From Methanomassiliicoccales archaeon (GTDB taxonomy: Archaea > Thermoplasmatota > Thermoplasmata > Methanomassiliicoccales > UBA472), in NCBI GenBank assembly GCA_026394375.1, contig JAPKYJ010000013.1, positions 66,089 to 130,088 of the forward strand: a DNA stretch of 64,000 nt, in the 5' to 3' direction. The notes beneath the pieces are model-generated. The model was given only the letters and a program-made list of their open reading frames with translations. It was not told where the DNA came from and searched no databases. Within the stretch, counting starts at the first letter, position 1; the number at the start of each line of letters is the position of its first letter. The translations under genes and the position numbers were made by a program. Shown in pieces: positions 17,332 to 26,798 of the stretch.

Positions 17332-17430
17332 TAGACATTTGTCTATTGATGCATCGCTTATTGTGCAACAACACGATTCCTTGAGCCCATCAGAGCCTTA
17401 GAATTAGACAAATGCACGATACCTATAAAG
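17332..17430 (+). promoter_or_regulatory. Promoter region of the glutamate-synthase-like operon with repeated TAGACAAATG motif
   Basis: The 464-base gap 17158-17621 holds this region. TAGACA-TT-TGTCTA forms an inverted repeat at 17332-17345. Its right half is the exact complement of TAGACAAATG at 17405-17414, which lies ten bases before a TATA box (TATAAAG, 17424-17430). Transcription would start near 17452, giving a leader of about 170 bases. The repeated motif is a candidate activator or repressor site. Confidence 0.45.
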
Positions 17431-17545
17431 CTAGAATCGTTGTTGTCTGTGCCCACTGAGGGCCACGCCATCGAGGGAGTTGCGTCCGCTCCATCACCGA
17501 GAAGGGCGCGATCGTCAGCGGGCGGCGGTCGGCAGGGGGCTGCGA

Positions 17546-17641
17546 ATGGCTCAGTGCAAAACGGTCACACTGCGTGTTGGTCGCTTGAGAACGACACCGA
17601 TGAAGGAAGAGGGGTACTTCTTTGAACGCCAGCTCCTCTGA
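17546..17641 (+). CDS. Possible 31-residue leader peptide
   Basis: An ATG frame (MAQCKTVTLRVGRLR...) with AGGGGG upstream at 17535-17540. It ends 20 bases inside the next gene in another frame. Nothing is recognised in the peptide. It may be a translated leader or chance. Confidence 0.25.
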   Translation: MAQCKTVTLRVGRLRTTPMKEEGYFFERQLL

Positions 17642-19652
17642 GACCCTTCATCAGACCGAGCCAGTTCCCGTTGCCGAAACGGCCATCGATCCGCTCTCGA
17701 CCCCTCCAGCGTCAGCAGACCCGTGGACGACGCGGTTCGGCATCGATGCTCTTTTCCCAGGAAAGGATGAAGGGAAGAGAGGAGAATTGGCGAAGGCCAT
17801 CGACGACCTGAAGATCCCTGACCTCATGGTGATATCAGCCAAAGGCTGGCGCGCCCTATACTCCAGAGATCAGGCGGATGTGCCAGATTTACTCCGCAAT
17901 GTCCTCTTCCGAAGCATGCCAGGCGTCGTAGTGCAGCCCTTTTCCGTGGAAGCCGTGGTCGCGGTTCTGCGATTCGCCACCTCGAAACGCGTCCCTGTGG
18001 TGGTCAGAGGGGCAGGCTCCTCTCCGTTCGGCGGCTCGATGCCGGTCAAAGGCGGCATCGTGATGGACATGAACGCCATGGATCGGGTGCTCGATTTCGA
18101 TGCCGCCAAGAGCTTCGTCAAAGTCCAAGGGGGCATGAGATGGTCCGACCTCGACTGGTTCCTTGAGAAGCATGATCTGATGGTTCGATCTTCGCCCTCG
18201 AGCAGGTTCTCCACCGTCGCGGGCTGGGTCGCCACCGGAGGGATAGGGATCGGGAGCGTGTCCGGCGGGCACCTGAGCCGCTGGGCGAACGAGCTGGAAG
18301 TGGTCACCTCTGATGGCCAGGTCAGAACGCTTCGCCCTTCGGACAAGCGGTTCGCCTCGCTCTTCGGCAGCGAAGGGCGGCTGGCGGTCATCGTCTCCGT
18401 GACGCTTCAGGCGCGGCCCAGGCCCAAGGCGCCTCTCCCCACCCTGGTGCTCTTTAATGACCGGGCGAAAGCGCTCAGGTACGCGACTTTCCTAGCGCAG
18501 TCGCCCACGCCTCCCCTGGACCTCACCTATTACAGCCCAGCGAAGTTCGAGGCGATCAACCGCCTCCTGGGCCGCTCGCGTTTCCCCATCAAGCACGGGG
18601 TAATGGCGTGCTATGAGAGCAAGGATGCCGTTCCCTCGTCCTCGGCGGTGCCGCCGGGAGCGATGCGCGCGGAACCCTATCTCGCCAATCTGATCTGGAA
18701 CGAGCGCTTCTTCCCCATGAAGTTCCGCAAGCTCGGCCCGGGGCTGATGGGGTCGGAAGTCATGGCCCCCCGGGAACGCTTGCCGGAGATCGCCGCCCGC
18801 GCCGATGAGATGTGCCGCCATCACGGCCTCTCCCCGCTGATGGAGGTGCACTTCATGCCGGGGGGCGACGGGCTTCTTCTCACTTACTACACCACGGACC
18901 AGGCGAAAACGCTGCGGTACACCATGGACTCGTTCCGTGGGTTGCTCATCAGCAGCGCCCTCATGGAGGCGGGCGCGCGCCCGTACTCGCTAGGGGTCTG
19001 GAACAACATGTTCTCCGATCAGGCGGGAGAGGAAGAGGATCTGGCCGGGGCGAAGGCCGACCTCGATCCCGCCGGCATCATGAACCGCGGAAAATACCCG
19101 CGCCTGGGAGGGCGACTGGGAGGATTCCCCGCGGTGATGTTCGCCCCTGGGGTCCTAGGCAGCATGCTCAAGCTGGTGAACCGGATGGGACCGCTGTCCG
19201 CCGCCGGGATGAAGGTCATCTCGGCGGCCAAGGCGTTCGACCGGGTGGGCGACGATCAGCTCCTCAGGGCGGCCGACGAGTGTGCCATGTGCGGAGCGTG
19301 CGTCGGCGTCTGCCCGGCGTATATCATGACCAAAGATGAGCGGGTGACGGCGCGAGGGAAGCTGCTCGCGGCCCGCCGCATAGCCCAAGGTAAGGAGATA
19401 TCGAAGGAGCACGCGCACCGCGTCTTCCTCTGCATGCGCTGCAAGGCCTGCGAGCAGGTCTGCCAGTCGAAGCTCCACCTCATCGAGGTGTACGAGGAGA
19501 TGGAGAGAAGGCTCGAGAAGGAGCATGGCAAGGACGAGGCGGAGATCAAGCGCTTCGTATCCGTGGCTGAGAAATCGCCCGCCTACGACGCGCTGGTGGA
19601 AAGGGGCCTGGTGCTCGGCGCTCCCAGCAAGACCGTCCAGGGAGGCAAGTGA
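17622..19652 (+). CDS. FAD-linked oxidase with C-terminal 4Fe-4S dicluster (GlcD-GlcF-type) subunit
   Basis: The N-terminal half is a GlcD/D-lactate dehydrogenase-type FAD-binding module (PCMH): VVVRGAGSSPFGGSMPV, STVAGWVATGGIGIGS and FGSEGRLAVIVSVTL. The C-terminus, from about residue 553, has two cluster motifs, CAMCGACVGVCP and CMRCKACEQVC, as in GlcF/HdrD-like subunits. Such fusions oxidise 2-hydroxy acids and pass electrons to Fe-S partners. The TTG at 17622 has GAGGGGT seven bases upstream. It is the first of four genes that continue as Fe-S and glutamate-synthase-like subunits with 1-2 base spacing or overlap, so it probably serves as their electron-input module. Substrate unknown. Confidence 0.85.
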   Translation: MNASSSETLHQTEPVPVAETAIDPLSTPPASADPWTTRFGIDALFPGKDEGKRGELAKAIDDLKIPDLMVISAKGWRALYSRDQADVPDLLRNVLFRSMPGVVVQPFSVEAVVAVLRFATSKRVPVVVRGAGSSPFGGSMPVKGGIVMDMNAMDRVLDFDAAKSFVKVQGGMRWSDLDWFLEKHDLMVRSSPSSRFSTVAGWVATGGIGIGSVSGGHLSRWANELEVVTSDGQVRTLRPSDKRFASLFGSEGRLAVIVSVTLQARPRPKAPLPTLVLFNDRAKALRYATFLAQSPTPPLDLTYYSPAKFEAINRLLGRSRFPIKHGVMACYESKDAVPSSSAVPPGAMRAEPYLANLIWNERFFPMKFRKLGPGLMGSEVMAPRERLPEIAARADEMCRHHGLSPLMEVHFMPGGDGLLLTYYTTDQAKTLRYTMDSFRGLLISSALMEAGARPYSLGVWNNMFSDQAGEEEDLAGAKADLDPAGIMNRGKYPRLGGRLGGFPAVMFAPGVLGSMLKLVNRMGPLSAAGMKVISAAKAFDRVGDDQLLRAADECAMCGACVGVCPAYIMTKDERVTARGKLLAARRIAQGKEISKEHAHRVFLCMRCKACEQVCQSKLHLIEVYEEMERRLEKEHGKDEAEIKRFVSVAEKSPAYDALVERGLVLGAPSKTVQGGK

Positions 19653-19653
19653 G

Positions 19654-21009
19654 ATGTACGAGCGCTACCACGTCCCAAAGAAAGAGATGCCTCCCGCGGG
19701 AGTGCCTTTCTCAAAGTCATCGGTGATCAGGAGCGACCGCTGCATGAACTGCGGTCGGTGCAAGGACGCTTGCGTCTATGGCGTGCACGAGCGGGACGCC
19801 TCCGACCCCAGGACCATGGCCGAGCCGAAGAGCCATCTGTGCAAGAACTGCCTGCGCTGTGTCGAGGACTGCCCGCAGCGCGCGCTGTCGGTCGAGCTCT
19901 CGCCCCTCTACCTCGGACTGGGGGGAGGGCTCTGGACGCCCCAGCGGGTGTTCACCATCTGGAACGAGGCCTGGACGGGCAAGATCCCGGTGTTCGGCGC
20001 CGGCTATAGAGGCAAGTTCGTAGGCCCAGGCTACGATTCAATGTGGACGGACATGTCCGAGATCGTGCGCCCCACCAGGGACGGCATCCACGGAAGGGAG
20101 TTCATATCCACCAGCGTCGACCTGGGGAAGAGGGTCGACTACCTTGAGTTCGACGAGGCCGGGAGGCTGATGACGAAGATGCCCGGTTTCGTGGAGCTTC
20201 CCATCCCCATGGTCCTGGACCTCACGCGGATCGACCTCACGCCGCAGGCCAGAAAAGGACTGATGCAGGCGGCGAAGACCCTCGGCACCCTGTTCATCGC
20301 GCCGGCGGAGGGACCTCTGCCCAACGGCAGCAACGAATCGATGGTTCCAGTGTTCGCATCGGGCAGGACGTCCGCCAACCCGGACCTTTCCAGTCCGAGG
20401 ATGGTCGAAGTGGAGCATTCGTCCGATTGGAGGTCGGATCTGAGAGCGCTCAAGGAGCGGTTCGGCGGGGCGGCGGTCGGAATCCGGATCCAGGCCAGGA
20501 ACGGCGTCGAGAGCGAGGTCGTCGAGCTGGCATCATCCGAGGTGGACGTGGTCCATATTCTTTACGACGAGCAAGGCCAGGAGGCCGATGGCAGGCTGGC
20601 CAAGGATTCGCTCATGGCGGTGAACCGCGCGCTGGTAACAGCTTCGCTCCGGGAAAGGGTGAGCATCATAGCCGGAGGCGGTCTGGCCGCGGCGGAGCAC
20701 GTTCCCAAGAGCCTCATCTGCGGGGCGGACGCCGTCGGACTGGAGCGGGCGCTGAAAGTGGCCCTGGGCTGCCAGGCTTGCGCCGACTGCGATAAGGACC
20801 GCTGCATGGCGGACCGCGAGAACGTCACATCCGACTGGTCGAAGTGGAGGGCGGTGAACCTGATCGGCGCCTGGCGCGACCAGCTGCTGGAGGTCATGGG
20901 CGCCATGGGGATGCGGGAAGCGCGCCGGTTGAGGGGCGAGATCGGGCGGGCCATCTTCTTCGAGGAAGCGGAGAAGGACGCCTTCGCCGGCATCAAGGGA
21001 GGTGCCTGA
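19654..21009 (+). CDS. Ferredoxin-type protein with degenerate glutamate-synthase FMN-barrel
   Basis: A 451-residue protein beginning with two 4Fe-4S motifs (CMNCGRCKDAC and CKNCLRCVEDCP). The C-terminal half resembles the end of the glutamate synthase FMN barrel: an IIAGGGLAAAEHVPK phosphate-type loop followed by CQACADCDKDRC, which parallels the cluster motif of the next gene. The FMN/2-oxoglutarate part (SFGSIS, GEGGY) seen in the next protein is missing, so this looks like a paralogue reshaped for electron transfer. The ATG at 19654 starts one base after the upstream stop. Confidence 0.75.
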   Translation: MYERYHVPKKEMPPAGVPFSKSSVIRSDRCMNCGRCKDACVYGVHERDASDPRTMAEPKSHLCKNCLRCVEDCPQRALSVELSPLYLGLGGGLWTPQRVFTIWNEAWTGKIPVFGAGYRGKFVGPGYDSMWTDMSEIVRPTRDGIHGREFISTSVDLGKRVDYLEFDEAGRLMTKMPGFVELPIPMVLDLTRIDLTPQARKGLMQAAKTLGTLFIAPAEGPLPNGSNESMVPVFASGRTSANPDLSSPRMVEVEHSSDWRSDLRALKERFGGAAVGIRIQARNGVESEVVELASSEVDVVHILYDEQGQEADGRLAKDSLMAVNRALVTASLRERVSIIAGGGLAAAEHVPKSLICGADAVGLERALKVALGCQACADCDKDRCMADRENVTSDWSKWRAVNLIGAWRDQLLEVMGAMGMREARRLRGEIGRAIFFEEAEKDAFAGIKGGA

Positions 21010-21010
21010 G

Positions 21011-22516
21011 ATGGCGACCAAGTTCTTCGAATCGACGACCGAGGACGACTACAGCCAGGTGCCACCACAATTGCTGAAGCGGATGAGCCGGTACCGGGTG
21101 ACGCGGGCGGACACCTGCATCAACTGCGGAACGTGCGCATCCCTCTGCCCATACGGCGTGCACCGACGCGTCGAGGGGCACGTGAGCATCCTGCCTCCGG
21201 CGGACCCAAAATGCATCGGTCCGAGCTGCGCCTCGAACTCCTTCCACTGCGTCAAGAACTGCCCCACTGGATCGCTGTCCTTGAGCGCCAACCCGATGTT
21301 CACCAGCATGGGCGATCCCCGTTGGACGGCGGAGATGATACTTGGGACGTGGAAGATGGCGGAGAGCGGCGAACCCCTGCCCCTGGACCACCCGGCGAAC
21401 ACCGGCGCCTCGGAAGGAGGGTTCGACCGCATGTCATTCGAGCTGCCTCCATTGAAGGGCAGCTTCGATCCCGAATCGATCTCCACGGCCATCGACCTGA
21501 ACCACCGGAAGGAAGGGACGAGGGTGCGCATCCCCATCCCGGTGTACGGAGGAGGCATGTCCTTCGGCTCGATCAGCCAGAGGACCATGCTCGCCCGGGC
21601 CATGGCGGCGAAGGAGTGGGGGACCTTCACCTGCACCGGTGAGGGCGGATATCCAGAGCTGCTCATCCCTTACAAGGAGCACGTCATCACGCAGATCGCC
21701 ACCGGGCTGTTCGGGGTGCGGGAGGAGACGATAAAGCGAGCTCCGATCGTCGAGTTCAAGTACGCTCAAGGGGCGAAGCCCGGACTTGGAGGGCATCTGC
21801 TGTACGAGAAGAACACCCCGGACGTGGCGAGGATGAGAGAGGCCGTTCCATTCACCAACCTTTTCTCCCCCTTCCCGTTCCATTCCGTGTACTCGGTCGA
21901 GGACCACAAGAAGCACCTGGACTGGATCGCCTCGGTGAACCCCAGGGCGCTGCTCTCGGTAAAGGTCTCCACCCCGAACGACGTGGAGATGGTGGCGGTC
22001 GGCTCGTACTACGCCGGCGCGCACATCGTGCACCTGGACGGAGGGTACGGGGGCACCGGGGCCGCACCGGAGATCGCGAAGAAGAATATCGCCATGCCGA
22101 TCGAGTACGCCATCCCGAAGGTGCATCGCTTCCTGGAGAAGGAGGGCATCCGGGAAGAGGTGACGCTCATAGCGAGCGGCGGAATCCGCACGGCCATGGA
22201 CGTCGCCAAGGCCATCGCCTTGGGCGCGGACGGCGTGGTCATCGGGACCGCTGAGCTGGTCGCCATGGGATGCGTGCGCTGCGCCAACTGCGAGAGCGGG
22301 CGCGGCTGCCCCCGCGGGATCGCGACCACGGACAAGGAGCTGGAGCAGCTGAACCAGATACCCATCCTGGCGCGCAGGCTGAGCAACCTCTATCGCTCGT
22401 GGAGGCTGCAGTGGTGCGAACTCCTCTTCCGCCTGGACATGAACGATCTGAGACAGCTCAGGGGGCGGATGGACCTGCTCCGCTATGCCGGTACCCCAGG
22501 GAGGATGCTGCCATGA
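21011..22516 (+). CDS. Glutamate synthase FMN-domain subunit (archaeal GltB2 type) with ferredoxin motif
   Basis: A 501-residue protein with the central glutamate synthase domain. It begins with one clear 4Fe-4S motif (CINCGTCASLCP) and a cysteine-rich second site (CIGPSC...CVKNCP). The FMN/2-oxoglutarate barrel carries GGGMSFGSIS, TGEGGYPE, the GYGGTGAAPE loop and LIASGGIRTAMDVAKAIALGAD. A CVRCANCESGRGC cluster site follows. In glutamate synthases this domain aminates 2-oxoglutarate. The ATG at 21011 follows the previous stop by one base, and the stop overlaps the next ATG (ATGA at 22513). Confidence 0.9.
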   Translation: MATKFFESTTEDDYSQVPPQLLKRMSRYRVTRADTCINCGTCASLCPYGVHRRVEGHVSILPPADPKCIGPSCASNSFHCVKNCPTGSLSLSANPMFTSMGDPRWTAEMILGTWKMAESGEPLPLDHPANTGASEGGFDRMSFELPPLKGSFDPESISTAIDLNHRKEGTRVRIPIPVYGGGMSFGSISQRTMLARAMAAKEWGTFTCTGEGGYPELLIPYKEHVITQIATGLFGVREETIKRAPIVEFKYAQGAKPGLGGHLLYEKNTPDVARMREAVPFTNLFSPFPFHSVYSVEDHKKHLDWIASVNPRALLSVKVSTPNDVEMVAVGSYYAGAHIVHLDGGYGGTGAAPEIAKKNIAMPIEYAIPKVHRFLEKEGIREEVTLIASGGIRTAMDVAKAIALGADGVVIGTAELVAMGCVRCANCESGRGCPRGIATTDKELEQLNQIPILARRLSNLYRSWRLQWCELLFRLDMNDLRQLRGRMDLLRYAGTPGRMLP

Positions 22517-25107
22517 GCCATGCCAAGGCGCTATTGGAGTCGAGGAGGAAGCTGCATCAAGCACCGTTCAAGTACGTCCCGCAAGAGGCGGAGGGAGGAT
22601 GCGGCGTGGTCGGCCTGGTCGCCTCGCGTCCCATCCGAGGCTCGCACATCCTGCAGCCGCTGGAGCAGATGCACAACCGGGGGAACGGGAAGGGAGGAGG
22701 CATCTCCGCCGTCGGCCTAGTCCCCGAACAGCTGGGAGTGGACCGGAATACCCTGGAGCAGGACTACCTGGTGCAGGTCGCGTACCTGAAGGAGGATGTA
22801 AGGGAGCAGCTGGAAAAGGAGTTCATCTTCACCACCTACGACGTGCACGCGTCGCATCGAGTGGCCACCAGCGACGATCCCGCCCTGCTCGGCCGCCTGG
22901 AGGTGACCCCTCCCGTGGTGCACCGCTATTTCTGCCGGGCCAAGAAGGAGGTCCTAGACCGCTTCGTCCAGGAGAACGCGCTGCACGACGTCGACCGGAG
23001 ACGCGCGGAGGACGAGCTGGTGTACCAGACCAGCTTCCAGATCAACAAGAAATACTACGCTGGCACTTCGATGTCCGCCTTCGTCATGTCCCATGGGCGG
23101 AACATGCTCATCATGAAGATCGTGGGCTACGCCGAGGACGTCATCCACTACTACAAGCTGGAGGACTTCCAGGCGCATATGTGGATCGGGCATCAGAGGT
23201 ATCCGACAAAGGGGCGGGTCTGGCACCCGGGAGGGGCGCATCCGTTCATGGGCTTGGACGAGGCGCTGGTGCATAACGGCGACTTCGCCAACTACTACTC
23301 CATGACGGAGTACTTGGGGCAGAAGGGCATCACCCCGCTCTTCCTTACCGATACGGAGGTGTCTGTGCTGCTCTTTGACCTGCTCAATCGCGTCTATGGC
23401 TATCCGCTGGAGTACATTCTGGAGGCGCTCGCGCCCACCACCGAGAGGGACTTCCACCTCCTGTCCGAGGAGAAGCAGAAGGTGTACCGGGCGATCCAGT
23501 CGACGCACCTCCATCGTTCGCCGGACGGACCGTGGTTCTTCATCATCAGCCGCAACGACCATTACGAGGACAGGCTGCAGCTCATCGGGATCACAGACAC
23601 ATCGATGCTGCGGCCGCAGGTCTTCGCCCTGGTCGAGGGCGAGGTGCAGGTCGGATTGATAGCCTCGGAGAAGCAAGCCATCGATTCGTCGCTCCGCAGC
23701 CTGTCCACGGAGTTCCGGTCGGTGCCGCAGCAGGCGGACCTGTACTGGAACGCCAGGGGCGGGAGCCATACGGACGGCGGGGCATTCATATTCACCCTGG
23801 GTGCTGAGGTGCCCGGCAACGGACGAGAGCTGGTCTGCACGAACAAGTTCGGGGCGTGCGTTTCCGTCCCCGGCGAGAGATACGAGAGGCAGCAGGACGC
23901 CGCCATGTCCGGGCCGCTGCCTGAGGAAGCGACCTCGTCGCTCGCCGATTATATGCTCGCCTCCAGCGTGGAGGACGGTTTCCATGTTTGGAAGGAAGCC
24001 ATCGCCCGCGCCTCCGCGCAGGAAGCGATGGGCGCCATCTCCTTCCTGTCTTCGTCGGGCTCGAGCGCGAAGGATGTGGAGAAGAGGCTGGCCCTGCTCA
24101 CCCTGGCGATGGACCGGCGCTATTCCACAGGCCGGCTGCGGAGGAGCCGGGTGCTCTCCAGGCTGAACGAGGGAGTGAACGCCCTGCTCCACGCTTCATC
24201 GGGCCAGGGGTTCGTCCTGGTGGACCTGAAAGGGCATCGCCAGATCCGCGCGCCGGGGGAGGGGGAAAAGGCCCTGGTAATCGATTGCGAGGGCTTCCCG
24301 ATGGAGGGTGTGGAGGGCGTCTCCCACCTCATCTGCCGCGGGGCAGAGCTTGGATGGAAGCGCATCATCGTCATCGGAGCGCACGGCCAGCGCTTCTTCG
24401 GCTGCGGCCTCGGACCGCGGTCGAAGGGTATCGAGATCGAAGTCTATGGCAGCTCGGGCGATTACCTCGCTTCCGGTCTGGACGGAGCTTCGATCACGGT
24501 GCACGGCAACGCCCAGGACCAGCTGGGCCAGATCCTGAACTCCGGTAAGCTGGTGGTGCACGGGGACGTCGGGCAGACTTTCATGTACGGGTCCAAGGGC
24601 GGCGAGGTCTTCATCCTAGGCAACGCTGCTGGGCGACCGCTCATCAACGCCGTCGGAAAGCCGCGCGTGGTCATCAACGGCACTTGCCTGGATTATCTTG
24701 CAGAGTCGTTCATGGCCGGAGATCCGTTGAACGGAGGGGGTTTCGTGATCCTCAACGCCCTGGGCTTCGATGGCGACGGTGGAGCCTTCGACCTTCCCGA
24801 GCCATATCCCGGCGGTAACCTCTTCTCACTCGCCTCGGGGGGCGCGATCTACGTGCGCGACCCGAAGGGAAAGGTAGGCGAGGACCAGCTGAACGGAGGG
24901 AGGATAGCTTCACTCACCGAGAAGGACTGGGAGGCGGTACTTCCATACTTGAGGGAGAATGAGCGGCTTTTCGGCATCTCGGTGGAGGATGTGCTGCTGC
25001 GAAAGGATGGGGCGCAGGTGAAGCCCTGGGAGATCTACAAGAAGGTCGAGGTCGTGCCGCTCTCCGCCCTCTCCAAGAGCGAGCAGGTCGAGGATGATTC
25101 GGACTAG
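22513..25107 (+). CDS. Glutamate synthase amidotransferase + GXGXG subunit (GltB1-GltB3 fusion)
   Basis: An 864-residue protein. Residues about 33-400 are a class II glutamine amidotransferase with the nucleophilic Cys in GGCGVVGLV after a leader of about 31 residues (probably removed to expose the Cys), and MHNRGNGKGGG as the glutamine-site loop. The last 250 residues are the GXGXG beta-helix domain of glutamate synthase (CGLGPRSKGIEIEVYG, VHGDVGQTFMYGSKGG, GGGFVILNALG). Together with the FMN subunit this supplies all GltB domains, split over two genes. No GltD-type NAD(P)H subunit is adjacent. N-methylglutamate synthase has a related layout and is an alternative. Confidence 0.88.
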   Translation: MSHAKALLESRRKLHQAPFKYVPQEAEGGCGVVGLVASRPIRGSHILQPLEQMHNRGNGKGGGISAVGLVPEQLGVDRNTLEQDYLVQVAYLKEDVREQLEKEFIFTTYDVHASHRVATSDDPALLGRLEVTPPVVHRYFCRAKKEVLDRFVQENALHDVDRRRAEDELVYQTSFQINKKYYAGTSMSAFVMSHGRNMLIMKIVGYAEDVIHYYKLEDFQAHMWIGHQRYPTKGRVWHPGGAHPFMGLDEALVHNGDFANYYSMTEYLGQKGITPLFLTDTEVSVLLFDLLNRVYGYPLEYILEALAPTTERDFHLLSEEKQKVYRAIQSTHLHRSPDGPWFFIISRNDHYEDRLQLIGITDTSMLRPQVFALVEGEVQVGLIASEKQAIDSSLRSLSTEFRSVPQQADLYWNARGGSHTDGGAFIFTLGAEVPGNGRELVCTNKFGACVSVPGERYERQQDAAMSGPLPEEATSSLADYMLASSVEDGFHVWKEAIARASAQEAMGAISFLSSSGSSAKDVEKRLALLTLAMDRRYSTGRLRRSRVLSRLNEGVNALLHASSGQGFVLVDLKGHRQIRAPGEGEKALVIDCEGFPMEGVEGVSHLICRGAELGWKRIIVIGAHGQRFFGCGLGPRSKGIEIEVYGSSGDYLASGLDGASITVHGNAQDQLGQILNSGKLVVHGDVGQTFMYGSKGGEVFILGNAAGRPLINAVGKPRVVINGTCLDYLAESFMAGDPLNGGGFVILNALGFDGDGGAFDLPEPYPGGNLFSLASGGAIYVRDPKGKVGEDQLNGGRIASLTEKDWEAVLPYLRENERLFGISVEDVLLRKDGAQVKPWEIYKKVEVVPLSALSKSEQVEDDSD

Positions 25108-25310: not shown

Positions 25311-26759
25311 TCAGTTCGTTTCAACCTCTACGCTCAGGTCTTCCTTTGCCTTGTCCAATCTCCGGTTCTCCCGCTGCGAGTAGGCCCACAGTGGGAAGAA
25401 GACTGCGAGCACCCCGAAGCCGACAAGCGTGGGCATTATTCCGTACGCCAGGTTGTTGATGTATATCGCCCCCACGAGCAGAAGCGGTATCTGCAGTATG
25501 CCCAGCGCCAGGGCGATCCATACCCAGCCTCTCGGGGCTTTGTACGGTCTCTCCAGCTTCATCAGGGTCGGGTCCCGGTGCGCTTTGACGTAGGCGAACA
25601 GCCCGATGGCGAACGCAAACACGTACCCGATGGCCGAGGCCGCGAGGATGGCCACCGGGTTCCCCAAGAGAATCAGGAGCATGTTGAACACCGCGATCAC
25701 ATAGATGGCGCGCATCGGCTCTCCCCGGGAGTTCGTTCGGACGAACCACCGGGGAAGATTGCCCTCCAGGGACATGGCGTGCATCGCCCTTGCGGCCGCG
25801 GAATATCCTATTTGGATGAGCAATATCATTGCGCCGATTAGCATCAAGATGACCACTGACGCCCCGATGCTGCCGAACGCCATCTCCGCAACCGGCTGCA
25901 AAGGCGAGATCGGCTGAGCCAACACCCCGTCCACGCCCAAGGCGCCGACGACCGATGTTTGGATGAGCACGTACATGACCAAGCAGAAGATGCCCACGGA
26001 GAAGAGCGCCTTCTTCACGTCGGAACTCGGCTTCTTGTACTCCGGTCCGTAGATCGCCACCACCTCCCAGCAACATGCGCTCCACTGAGCAATGACCATC
26101 AAGCCCAGGATCAGCATGATATGGTCAGCATCCCAGCTCCATTCCGCCGGAACGAGCGCATTGGTGATATTCTCCACGTGGAAGTTGCCCGTCACGAACG
26201 GAGCCAGGACGATGATGATGATTGGTATGATGGTGAAGATAGCGATCAACAGTCCCAGCCGGGCGCTGTGCTTCAACCCTCTAGAGGAAAGCAGCGCGAG
26301 GCCTCCTAGAATGACCGCGCCCAATGCTAGATTGAAGACAAGAGCATCGGTAGTCGCCAGGGCAGGGAAGAGCGCCTGCAGATAGCTGCCGATGAGAACG
26401 ATGAAGACCGCCAGGCCAGGCGCCCAAACCAGCCAGTAAGCCCAGGCGCAAAACCCGCCGATCAATCGGCCTCTATCGAATCTATTTTCTTCGATCTTCT
26501 TGCTCTTGAATATCTCCTGCGCGAAGCCCGGTATGCCCGAGACCTTGGGGAATGCGGTGGCGAGCTCGCCGAACGCCATGTTCTGCAAGAACCCCTGGAT
26601 CACGGACATGCCCCAAAGAACGATGGAAGCGGCCCAAAGAAAAGAGACCGTGAATCCGATCGTCGGGACGATGGCGAGAGGTATCCCGATCCCGATGAGG
26701 AATCCCTGCCGCCAACCGATGCTCCGGTGCAGGCCGTTGTTTGCCTTGTCCTCCGACAT
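25311..26759 (-). CDS. APC-superfamily amino acid/amine permease
   Basis: A 482-residue integral membrane protein with about twelve hydrophobic segments, beginning GWRQGFLIGIGIPLAIVPTIG, typical of the amino acid-polyamine-organocation family. Loops with YKKPSSDVKKAL and the C-terminal charged tail face the cytoplasm. Start at the ATG at 26759 (MSEDKANN). An inverted repeat lies 23 bases upstream. It converges on the glutamate-synthase-like operon, so uptake of an amino acid or amine used by that system is plausible but unproven. Confidence 0.88.
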   Translation of the reverse strand: MSEDKANNGLHRSIGWRQGFLIGIGIPLAIVPTIGFTVSFLWAASIVLWGMSVIQGFLQNMAFGELATAFPKVSGIPGFAQEIFKSKKIEENRFDRGRLIGGFCAWAYWLVWAPGLAVFIVLIGSYLQALFPALATTDALVFNLALGAVILGGLALLSSRGLKHSARLGLLIAIFTIIPIIIIVLAPFVTGNFHVENITNALVPAEWSWDADHIMLILGLMVIAQWSACCWEVVAIYGPEYKKPSSDVKKALFSVGIFCLVMYVLIQTSVVGALGVDGVLAQPISPLQPVAEMAFGSIGASVVILMLIGAMILLIQIGYSAAARAMHAMSLEGNLPRWFVRTNSRGEPMRAIYVIAVFNMLLILLGNPVAILAASAIGYVFAFAIGLFAYVKAHRDPTLMKLERPYKAPRGWVWIALALGILQIPLLLVGAIYINNLAYGIMPTLVGFGVLAVFFPLWAYSQRENRRLDKAKEDLSVEVETN

Positions 26760-26781
26760 TTTTATAGTTCCGTACCTTGAA

Positions 26782-26798
26782 TTGGATGATACATCCAA
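26782..26798 (-). promoter_or_regulatory. Perfect inverted repeat before the permease gene (candidate operator)
   Basis: TTGGATG-ATA-CATCCAA, seven bases each side, lies 23 bases before the permease ATG. Position and symmetry suit a repressor site. Confidence 0.45.

Follow-up and report, generated by a model that had tools for sequence, protein, structure and literature searches.

The four abutting genes at 17622-25107 of the window (the whole 64,000-nucleotide stretch analyzed) appear to encode a previously undescribed form of glutamate synthase; no description of this four-gene cluster was found in the open-access literature. The products, P0001 to P0004, probably form a hetero-oligomeric GOGAT, with glutamine and 2-oxoglutarate as substrates and glutamate as product, in which P0001 is the point of electron entry and P0002 acts in trans. 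An earlier sequence-only reading had described four abutting or overlapping genes in which the glutamate synthase core is complete and an unusual flavin/Fe-S module takes the place of GltD. Its coordinates were correct, and its account of the domains agreed with the open reading frames and with Pfam, NCBIfam and PDB searches. The features of the locus are as follows.

17332..17345, no strand assigned: palindrome TAGACATTTGTCTA / TAGACAttTGTCTA, putative operator, the sole such palindrome in the window
17423..17430, plus strand: TATA-like box CTATAAAG, promoter predicted from sequence, with ACTTTTAAGA at the aligned position in relatives
17622..19652, plus strand: P0001, TTG start; FAD_binding_4 at 17919-18332, FAD-oxidase_C-like cap, two [4Fe-4S] sites at 19272-19472
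19654..21009, plus strand: P0002, ATG start after a 1-nt gap; ferredoxin domain and inactive barrel paralogue
19987..20106, plus strand: invariant P0002 segment VPVxGxGYxGxFxGxGxD...DMSEIVRPTRDGIHGREfI, holding the majority of invariant columns in 26 rows
21011..22516, plus strand: P0003, ATG start after a 1-nt gap (alternative GTG at 21002); ferredoxin domain at 21107-21271, FMN/2-oxoglutarate barrel at 21506-22429
22271..22309, plus strand: [3Fe-4S] cysteine motif GCVRCANCESGRGCP of P0003; C421, C427 and C433 are invariant in the P0003 alignment and align with GltB
22513..25107, plus strand: P0004, 4-nt ATGA overlap with P0003; class II glutamine amidotransferase and GXGXG domain at 24391-24894
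22600..22602, plus strand: predicted catalytic Cys30 of P0004 (Cys1 after propeptide removal) in EAEGGCGVVG; CGV[VTI]G is present in every complete P0004

The TTG start of P0001 is backed by relatives, in which VNASSDP or MNASSDP begins at the equivalent position. With one or two changes, the palindrome TAGACAttTGTCTA is retained ahead of the operon in L056 (position 5739) and L059 (position 5736), the two closest relatives. Between the promoter and the start codon, the window shares with L056 and L059 a conserved leader stretch, TGCCCnnTGAGGGCCAnGCCATCG, at about 17450-17500. The leader of the four-gene operon had no match in Rfam, and PADLOC found nothing. Just downstream of the cluster is a convergent gene for an AA_permease_2 amino-acid permease (25311-26798).

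The catalytic core and its inactive barrel

Class II glutaminase, an FMN barrel with [3Fe-4S] cysteines and a GXGXG domain, the parts that define glutamate synthase (GltS), are all found in P0003 and P0004. P0003 matches the Pfam Glu_synthase family over its full length (2.4e-89), and QGAKPGLGGH and GGTGAAP are invariant among P0003 rows. The reading of P0003 as an intact FMN/2-oxoglutarate subunit with Fe-S sites held up. Its description of these sites as extra did not, since they are usual for archaeal GltB: the N-terminal ferredoxin domain is also found in the canonical archaeal copies L052-L054. P0004 matches GXGXG (PF01493, 1.5e-14) and, at 2.6e-5 and 24.7 bits, falls just below the 27-bit cut-off of GATase_6. 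Because this score is under the curated cut-off, the amidotransferase assignment is carried by the catalytic motifs, which are complete (CGVVG, HQRYPTKG, HNGDF and TDTEV).

Glutamate is the likely product. Methanomassiliicoccales-type archaea live on methylamines, and N-methylglutamate synthase is a relative of GltS. The host's order and this kinship would both favor another product, such as the N-methylglutamate from methylamine that had been suggested for this cluster. We consider this very improbable: the glutaminase motifs are intact in every complete P0004, the cluster also occurs in other lineages, including bacteria, and no supporting gene was seen. NrpR or Lrp-type regulators are adjacent, and the regulators and other neighbors point to nitrogen assimilation.

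P0002 contains Fer4 and a Glu_synthase match (7e-15) that covers profile positions 177-368 only. Compared to P0003, it lacks GEGG, GGTGAAP and some 43 residues that include QGAKPGLGGH. Binding of 2-oxoglutarate by P0002 is therefore not expected. It is doubtful that P0002 binds FMN, although the beta-7 and beta-8 glycine motifs, which are still present, leave some room for this. P0002 had been described as a paralogue of the FMN barrel that has lost its substrate half. It is a paralogue and appears inactive, but what has gone is the 2-oxoglutarate and FMN loops and not half of the barrel, as eight strands remain. In an AlphaFold model (mean pLDDT 78.7), the eight strands are in barrel order. 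The model matches FMN barrels, including glutamate synthase, with TM-scores of about 0.4 that indicate the fold class only.

The conservation of P0002 is concentrated in one segment. Of the 51 columns that are invariant across 26 P0002 rows, 27 are within residues 115-161 (three-residue-prefix numbering), clustered around GxGYxGxFxGxGxD and DMSEIVRPTRDGIHGRE. By profile comparison, the segment aligns with TGSGND...QVTNPSIDPLREP of canonical archaeal GltB (E 2.5e-36). This archaeal stretch aligns in turn (E 1.5e-8) with GSMGND...QVTNPPID, where the central domain of bacterial GltB begins. In Azospirillum GltB, GKEAIGSMGDD begins at residue 472, so the equivalent stretch holds Met479. In bacterial GltB, this loop of the central domain sits between the [3Fe-4S] cluster and FMN. 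According to a review, Met479 may control electron transfer from the cluster to FMN (PMC8097209). The QVTNPPID-type stretch has been lost from P0003 and its counterpart is present in P0002. From this sequence homology, we infer that P0002 supplies the central-domain-type segment to P0003 in trans. The segment has a pLDDT of 43-51 in the isolated AlphaFold model, which would be expected of a segment ordered only in the complex and is not proof of it.

A maximum-likelihood tree of 58 barrels placed the 26 P0002 rows and the 26 P0003 rows in one clade each (100/100), apart from canonical GltB. Each clade is firm; the long branches where they join mean that their mutual order with GltB is not. These sister clades reach other Thermoplasmatota and Fibrobacterota bacteria, the two phyla sampled. 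P0002 was also considered as specific kin of the GltB central domain. This was rejected by hhalign, which gave E 0.004 to that domain versus 5e-41 to P0003; P0003 is closer to the central domain than P0002 is. With E-values of 2.5e-36 to 5e-41, the archaeal FMN barrel is the nearest match of P0002, and the central domain is matched only at E 0.004; the inactive barrel here would thus be a parallel invention. By this conservation, P0002 reads as an ancient conserved partner and not as a product of decay. Two natural fusions of P0002 and P0003, L042 (840 aa) and L094 (998 aa), have the central-FMN order of GltB and argue that the two proteins touch. When L042 was aligned with both families by MAFFT, all P0002 rows fell on its C-terminal half.

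P0001 and the electron donor

P0001 matches FAD_binding_4 (3.4e-34) and Fer4_8 (4e-10) in Pfam, with the dicluster domain at its C-terminus. The CCG domains of GlcF/HdrD-type Fe-S partners gave no family match in P0001 at E<=1, and a thiol system, which had been suggested as a donor, is unlikely for lack of this cysteine domain. The fold is that of D-lactate dehydrogenase (8jdv, E 1e-20) and LctD, with TM-scores of 0.5-0.6 by query length. The alignment retains the carboxylate-binding Arg of the W..R motif.

The fold, this Arg and one metal His are what would be expected if P0001 oxidized glycolate, lactate or D-2-hydroxyglutarate and passed the electrons to FMN, the GlcD-type donor proposed earlier. 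However, the metal site is incomplete. The ligands in Pseudomonas D2HGDH (PaD2HGDH) are His374, His381 and Glu420 (PMC10025160). The first His is kept in 11 of 11 P0001 rows, while the equivalents of H381 and E420 are absent from all 11 and from the bacterial-bin copy L099. P0001 thus has the VAO/GlcD fold of FAD metallo-2-hydroxy-acid dehydrogenases without their His-x6-His and Glu ligands. The genome's own stand-alone GlcD (L035), unlike P0001, has DGNLH and EHGVG and so both of these ligands. Since two of the three ligands are missing in all members, a classic 2-hydroxy-acid reaction is unlikely, and we give a hydroxy acid as the donor only a slim chance. P0001 may still have a substrate site. 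Two flavin-site motifs, RxFPMKxRxxGPG and PYSxGxWN, are invariant in its 11 rows, which suggests that a site for a substrate or a partner has been kept.

The closest P0001 paralogue in the genome is L036 (E 1e-65, versus 1e-39), a stand-alone FAD_binding_4 protein (G000:C24:164954-166450) that also lacks the GlcD metal motifs. Its neighbors are an Lrp-type regulator and a copper ATPase.

Another possible explanation is that reduced ferredoxin feeds the [4Fe-4S] clusters directly, and that the FAD of P0001 is a store, a gate or a vestigial cofactor. Ferredoxin-dependent GltS is an established class (PMC8097209), the predicted complex has three ferredoxin-type domains, the host genome lacks an NAD(P)H subunit and the GlcD-type active site of P0001 is incomplete. 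Yet an FAD would be superfluous to a ferredoxin enzyme, and the flavin-site motifs of P0001 are invariant. We hold this explanation to be possible but rather unlikely. Our preferred donor is a two-electron compound whose oxidation at the FAD of P0001 does not involve the metal chemistry that D-2-hydroxy-acid dehydrogenases use; reduced ferredoxin is our second choice.

In the reaction with P0001 as electron entry, Cys30 of P0004 would free ammonia from glutamine, and the GXGXG helix of P0004 would be structural. P0003 would hold 2-oxoglutarate, FMN and the [3Fe-4S] cluster and reduce 2-iminoglutarate. P0002, a non-catalytic sister, would dock on P0003, place its segment between the [3Fe-4S] cluster and FMN, and contribute two [4Fe-4S] clusters as wiring. 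P0001, in place of GltD, would pass electrons from its FAD through its two [4Fe-4S] clusters to the ferredoxin domains of P0002 and P0003, and then through the [3Fe-4S] cluster to FMN. FAD proteins of the P0001 fold oxidize small molecules, and the direction of flow given here is assumed.

Distribution and variation of the electron input

The window and ten other genomes or contigs (L038-L041, L056 and L058-L062) share the order P0001-P0004, with neighboring genes separated or overlapping by only a few bases. P0001 was found in all nine of the four-gene genomes searched. Full-length P0002 is present in 23 of 293 Thermoplasmatota genomes: five with the four-gene cluster, including that of the window, 16 of family f33, and G042 and G003. 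A copy outside the archaea may exist on a 7.1-kb contig (L099, G332:C372), where P0001 and P0002 are followed by the beginning of P0003, in a metagenome bin of the same bacterial phylum as G293. This partial copy could represent the archaeal variant in a bacterial genome or, alternatively, contamination of the bin. The contig has 42% GC and an adjacent GlmS gene.

Genomes in which the core lacks both P0001 and other donor genes have lost or decayed ferredoxin domains. In the 16 f33 genomes and G003, P0001 is absent genome-wide at E 1e-15, P0003 has no N-terminal ferredoxin domain and that of P0002 is a remnant. The ferredoxin domains are missing from G042 too, whose sole counterpart of P0001, encoded elsewhere in the genome, is a distant relative of 909 aa. 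The Fibrobacterota-type core of P0002, P0003 and P0004 keeps the ferredoxin domains and has other redox genes adjacent in place of P0001. In L095 (6338-19499), Pfam confirmed NrpR, FlpD and MTHFR (MetF) upstream of the core, and an HdrA-fragment/NuoE fusion, NuoF and a NuoG-like gene downstream. By sequence, parts of this arrangement are present in L096, L097, L098, L094 and L063. Bacteria with the core mostly have an ordinary GltB too.

Two neighboring features are recorded as observations. One is the gene for MTHFR, a methylenetetrahydrofolate reductase, which in Fibrobacterota-type bacteria lies beside the core together with NrpR, a nitrogen repressor of archaeal type. The other is in the archaea. 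Directly downstream of the four-gene cluster in a member of the Thermoplasmata (L060, 10445-12739) is an NfnA/NfnB-like pair, a DHODB Fe-S domain protein and a Fer4_20 and Pyr_redox protein, which is not found in the window genome.

The bacterial neighbors raise the question of bifurcation or confurcation, in which P0001 or the NuoEFG/FlpD module would link the formation of glutamate to a pair of donors or acceptors. FlpD, MetF, the HdrA-fragment/NuoE fusion, NuoF and the NuoG-like protein are parts known from bifurcating complexes, and two barrels with many clusters could allow two electron paths. Gene adjacency is not complex formation, however, no known bifurcating flavin site was recognized in P0001, and electron transfer in known GltS is linear (PMC8097209). 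We consider such coupling possible but unlikely.

More broadly, we tentatively propose an ancient three-subunit core, shared by archaea and Fibrobacterota, that accepts exchangeable electron-input modules and may be bifurcating or confurcating in some lineages. The module would be P0001 in Thermoplasmatota and NuoEFG/FlpD/MetF in bacteria, with none where the ferredoxin domains have decayed. Behind this pattern are gene neighborhood and a small number of independent lineages (a single bacterial group, a single loss clade and G042).

Nitrogen metabolism of the host and relation to known glutamate synthases

The host is a soil or fen methanogen-like archaeon with a 1.73-Mb genome that is 99.84% complete; among named genomes, its nearest relatives are metagenome-assembled genomes of the Methanomassiliicoccaceae. 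No member of the GltD/NfnB family (PF14691) was found in the whole genome, in agreement with the claim that a pyridine-nucleotide subunit has been replaced. The genome has two glutamine synthetases and one GDH-type gene. P0003 is its only true GltB barrel; a 549-aa C24 protein was rejected as a second one, since it scored only 23 bits and belongs to a different family. L051 (G000:C24, 6572-8191) holds a distant glutamate-synthase-like FMN protein of 540 aa, with only a weak PF01645 match, an N-terminal Cys-rich stretch, MCPLCIEECQVMC, and an adjacent homoserine-dehydrogenase-like gene.

Since the host has a pair of glutamine synthetases and neither GltD/NfnB nor a further true GltB, the four-gene cluster would be its GOGAT, although the GDH-type gene may supply glutamate independently. 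The cluster is not simply a replacement everywhere, since G296 (L077) and G298 (L076) have both it and a canonical three-gene archaeal glutamate synthase; its roles there may differ. Lrp-type regulators, as read from sequence, are divergent from L042 and L046, and bacterial copies of the core adjoin NrpR, a 2-oxoglutarate-sensing nitrogen repressor (PMC9765008). These regulators and the intact glutaminase and synthase motifs make nitrogen assimilation the best reading of the cluster's function.

The canonical archaeal split GltS of the same phylum (L052-L054, L076 and L077) shares the ferredoxin-FMN barrel with its [3Fe-4S] site, the GATase and the GXGXG domain. It consists of three separate genes with a single barrel that carries the QVTNPPID segment, and P0001 is not part of it. 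The four-gene cluster differs in its GATase-GXGXG fusion, its additional inactive barrel and the loss of the segment from P0003. Bacterial NADPH-GltS (GltB/GltD) has the same catalytic domains, and its GltB chain includes, ahead of the FMN domain and in cis with it, a central domain that is barrel-like and inactive. In the present cluster, the inactive barrel is the separate P0002 and there is no GltD. Ferredoxin-dependent GltS likewise lacks a pyridine-nucleotide subunit and has an Fe-S route to FMN, but it is a single chain, whereas this unit includes an FAD flavoprotein with two [4Fe-4S] sites. P0001 shares its fold and FAD domain with GlcD/LctD/LDHD-type dehydrogenases. It differs from these in its incomplete metal site, its C-terminal dicluster without CCG and its fixed partnership with glutamate synthase.

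That a duplicated FMN barrel gave rise to the central domain of GltB is an old idea (PMC8097209). This cluster is a natural test of it, since both barrel copies are still recognizable here. Glutamate synthase is a central nitrogen enzyme for which, to our knowledge, there are few accepted electron-donor classes. If our reading is true, a GlcD-fold electron entry with a separate inactive barrel would add a donor class to GOGAT.
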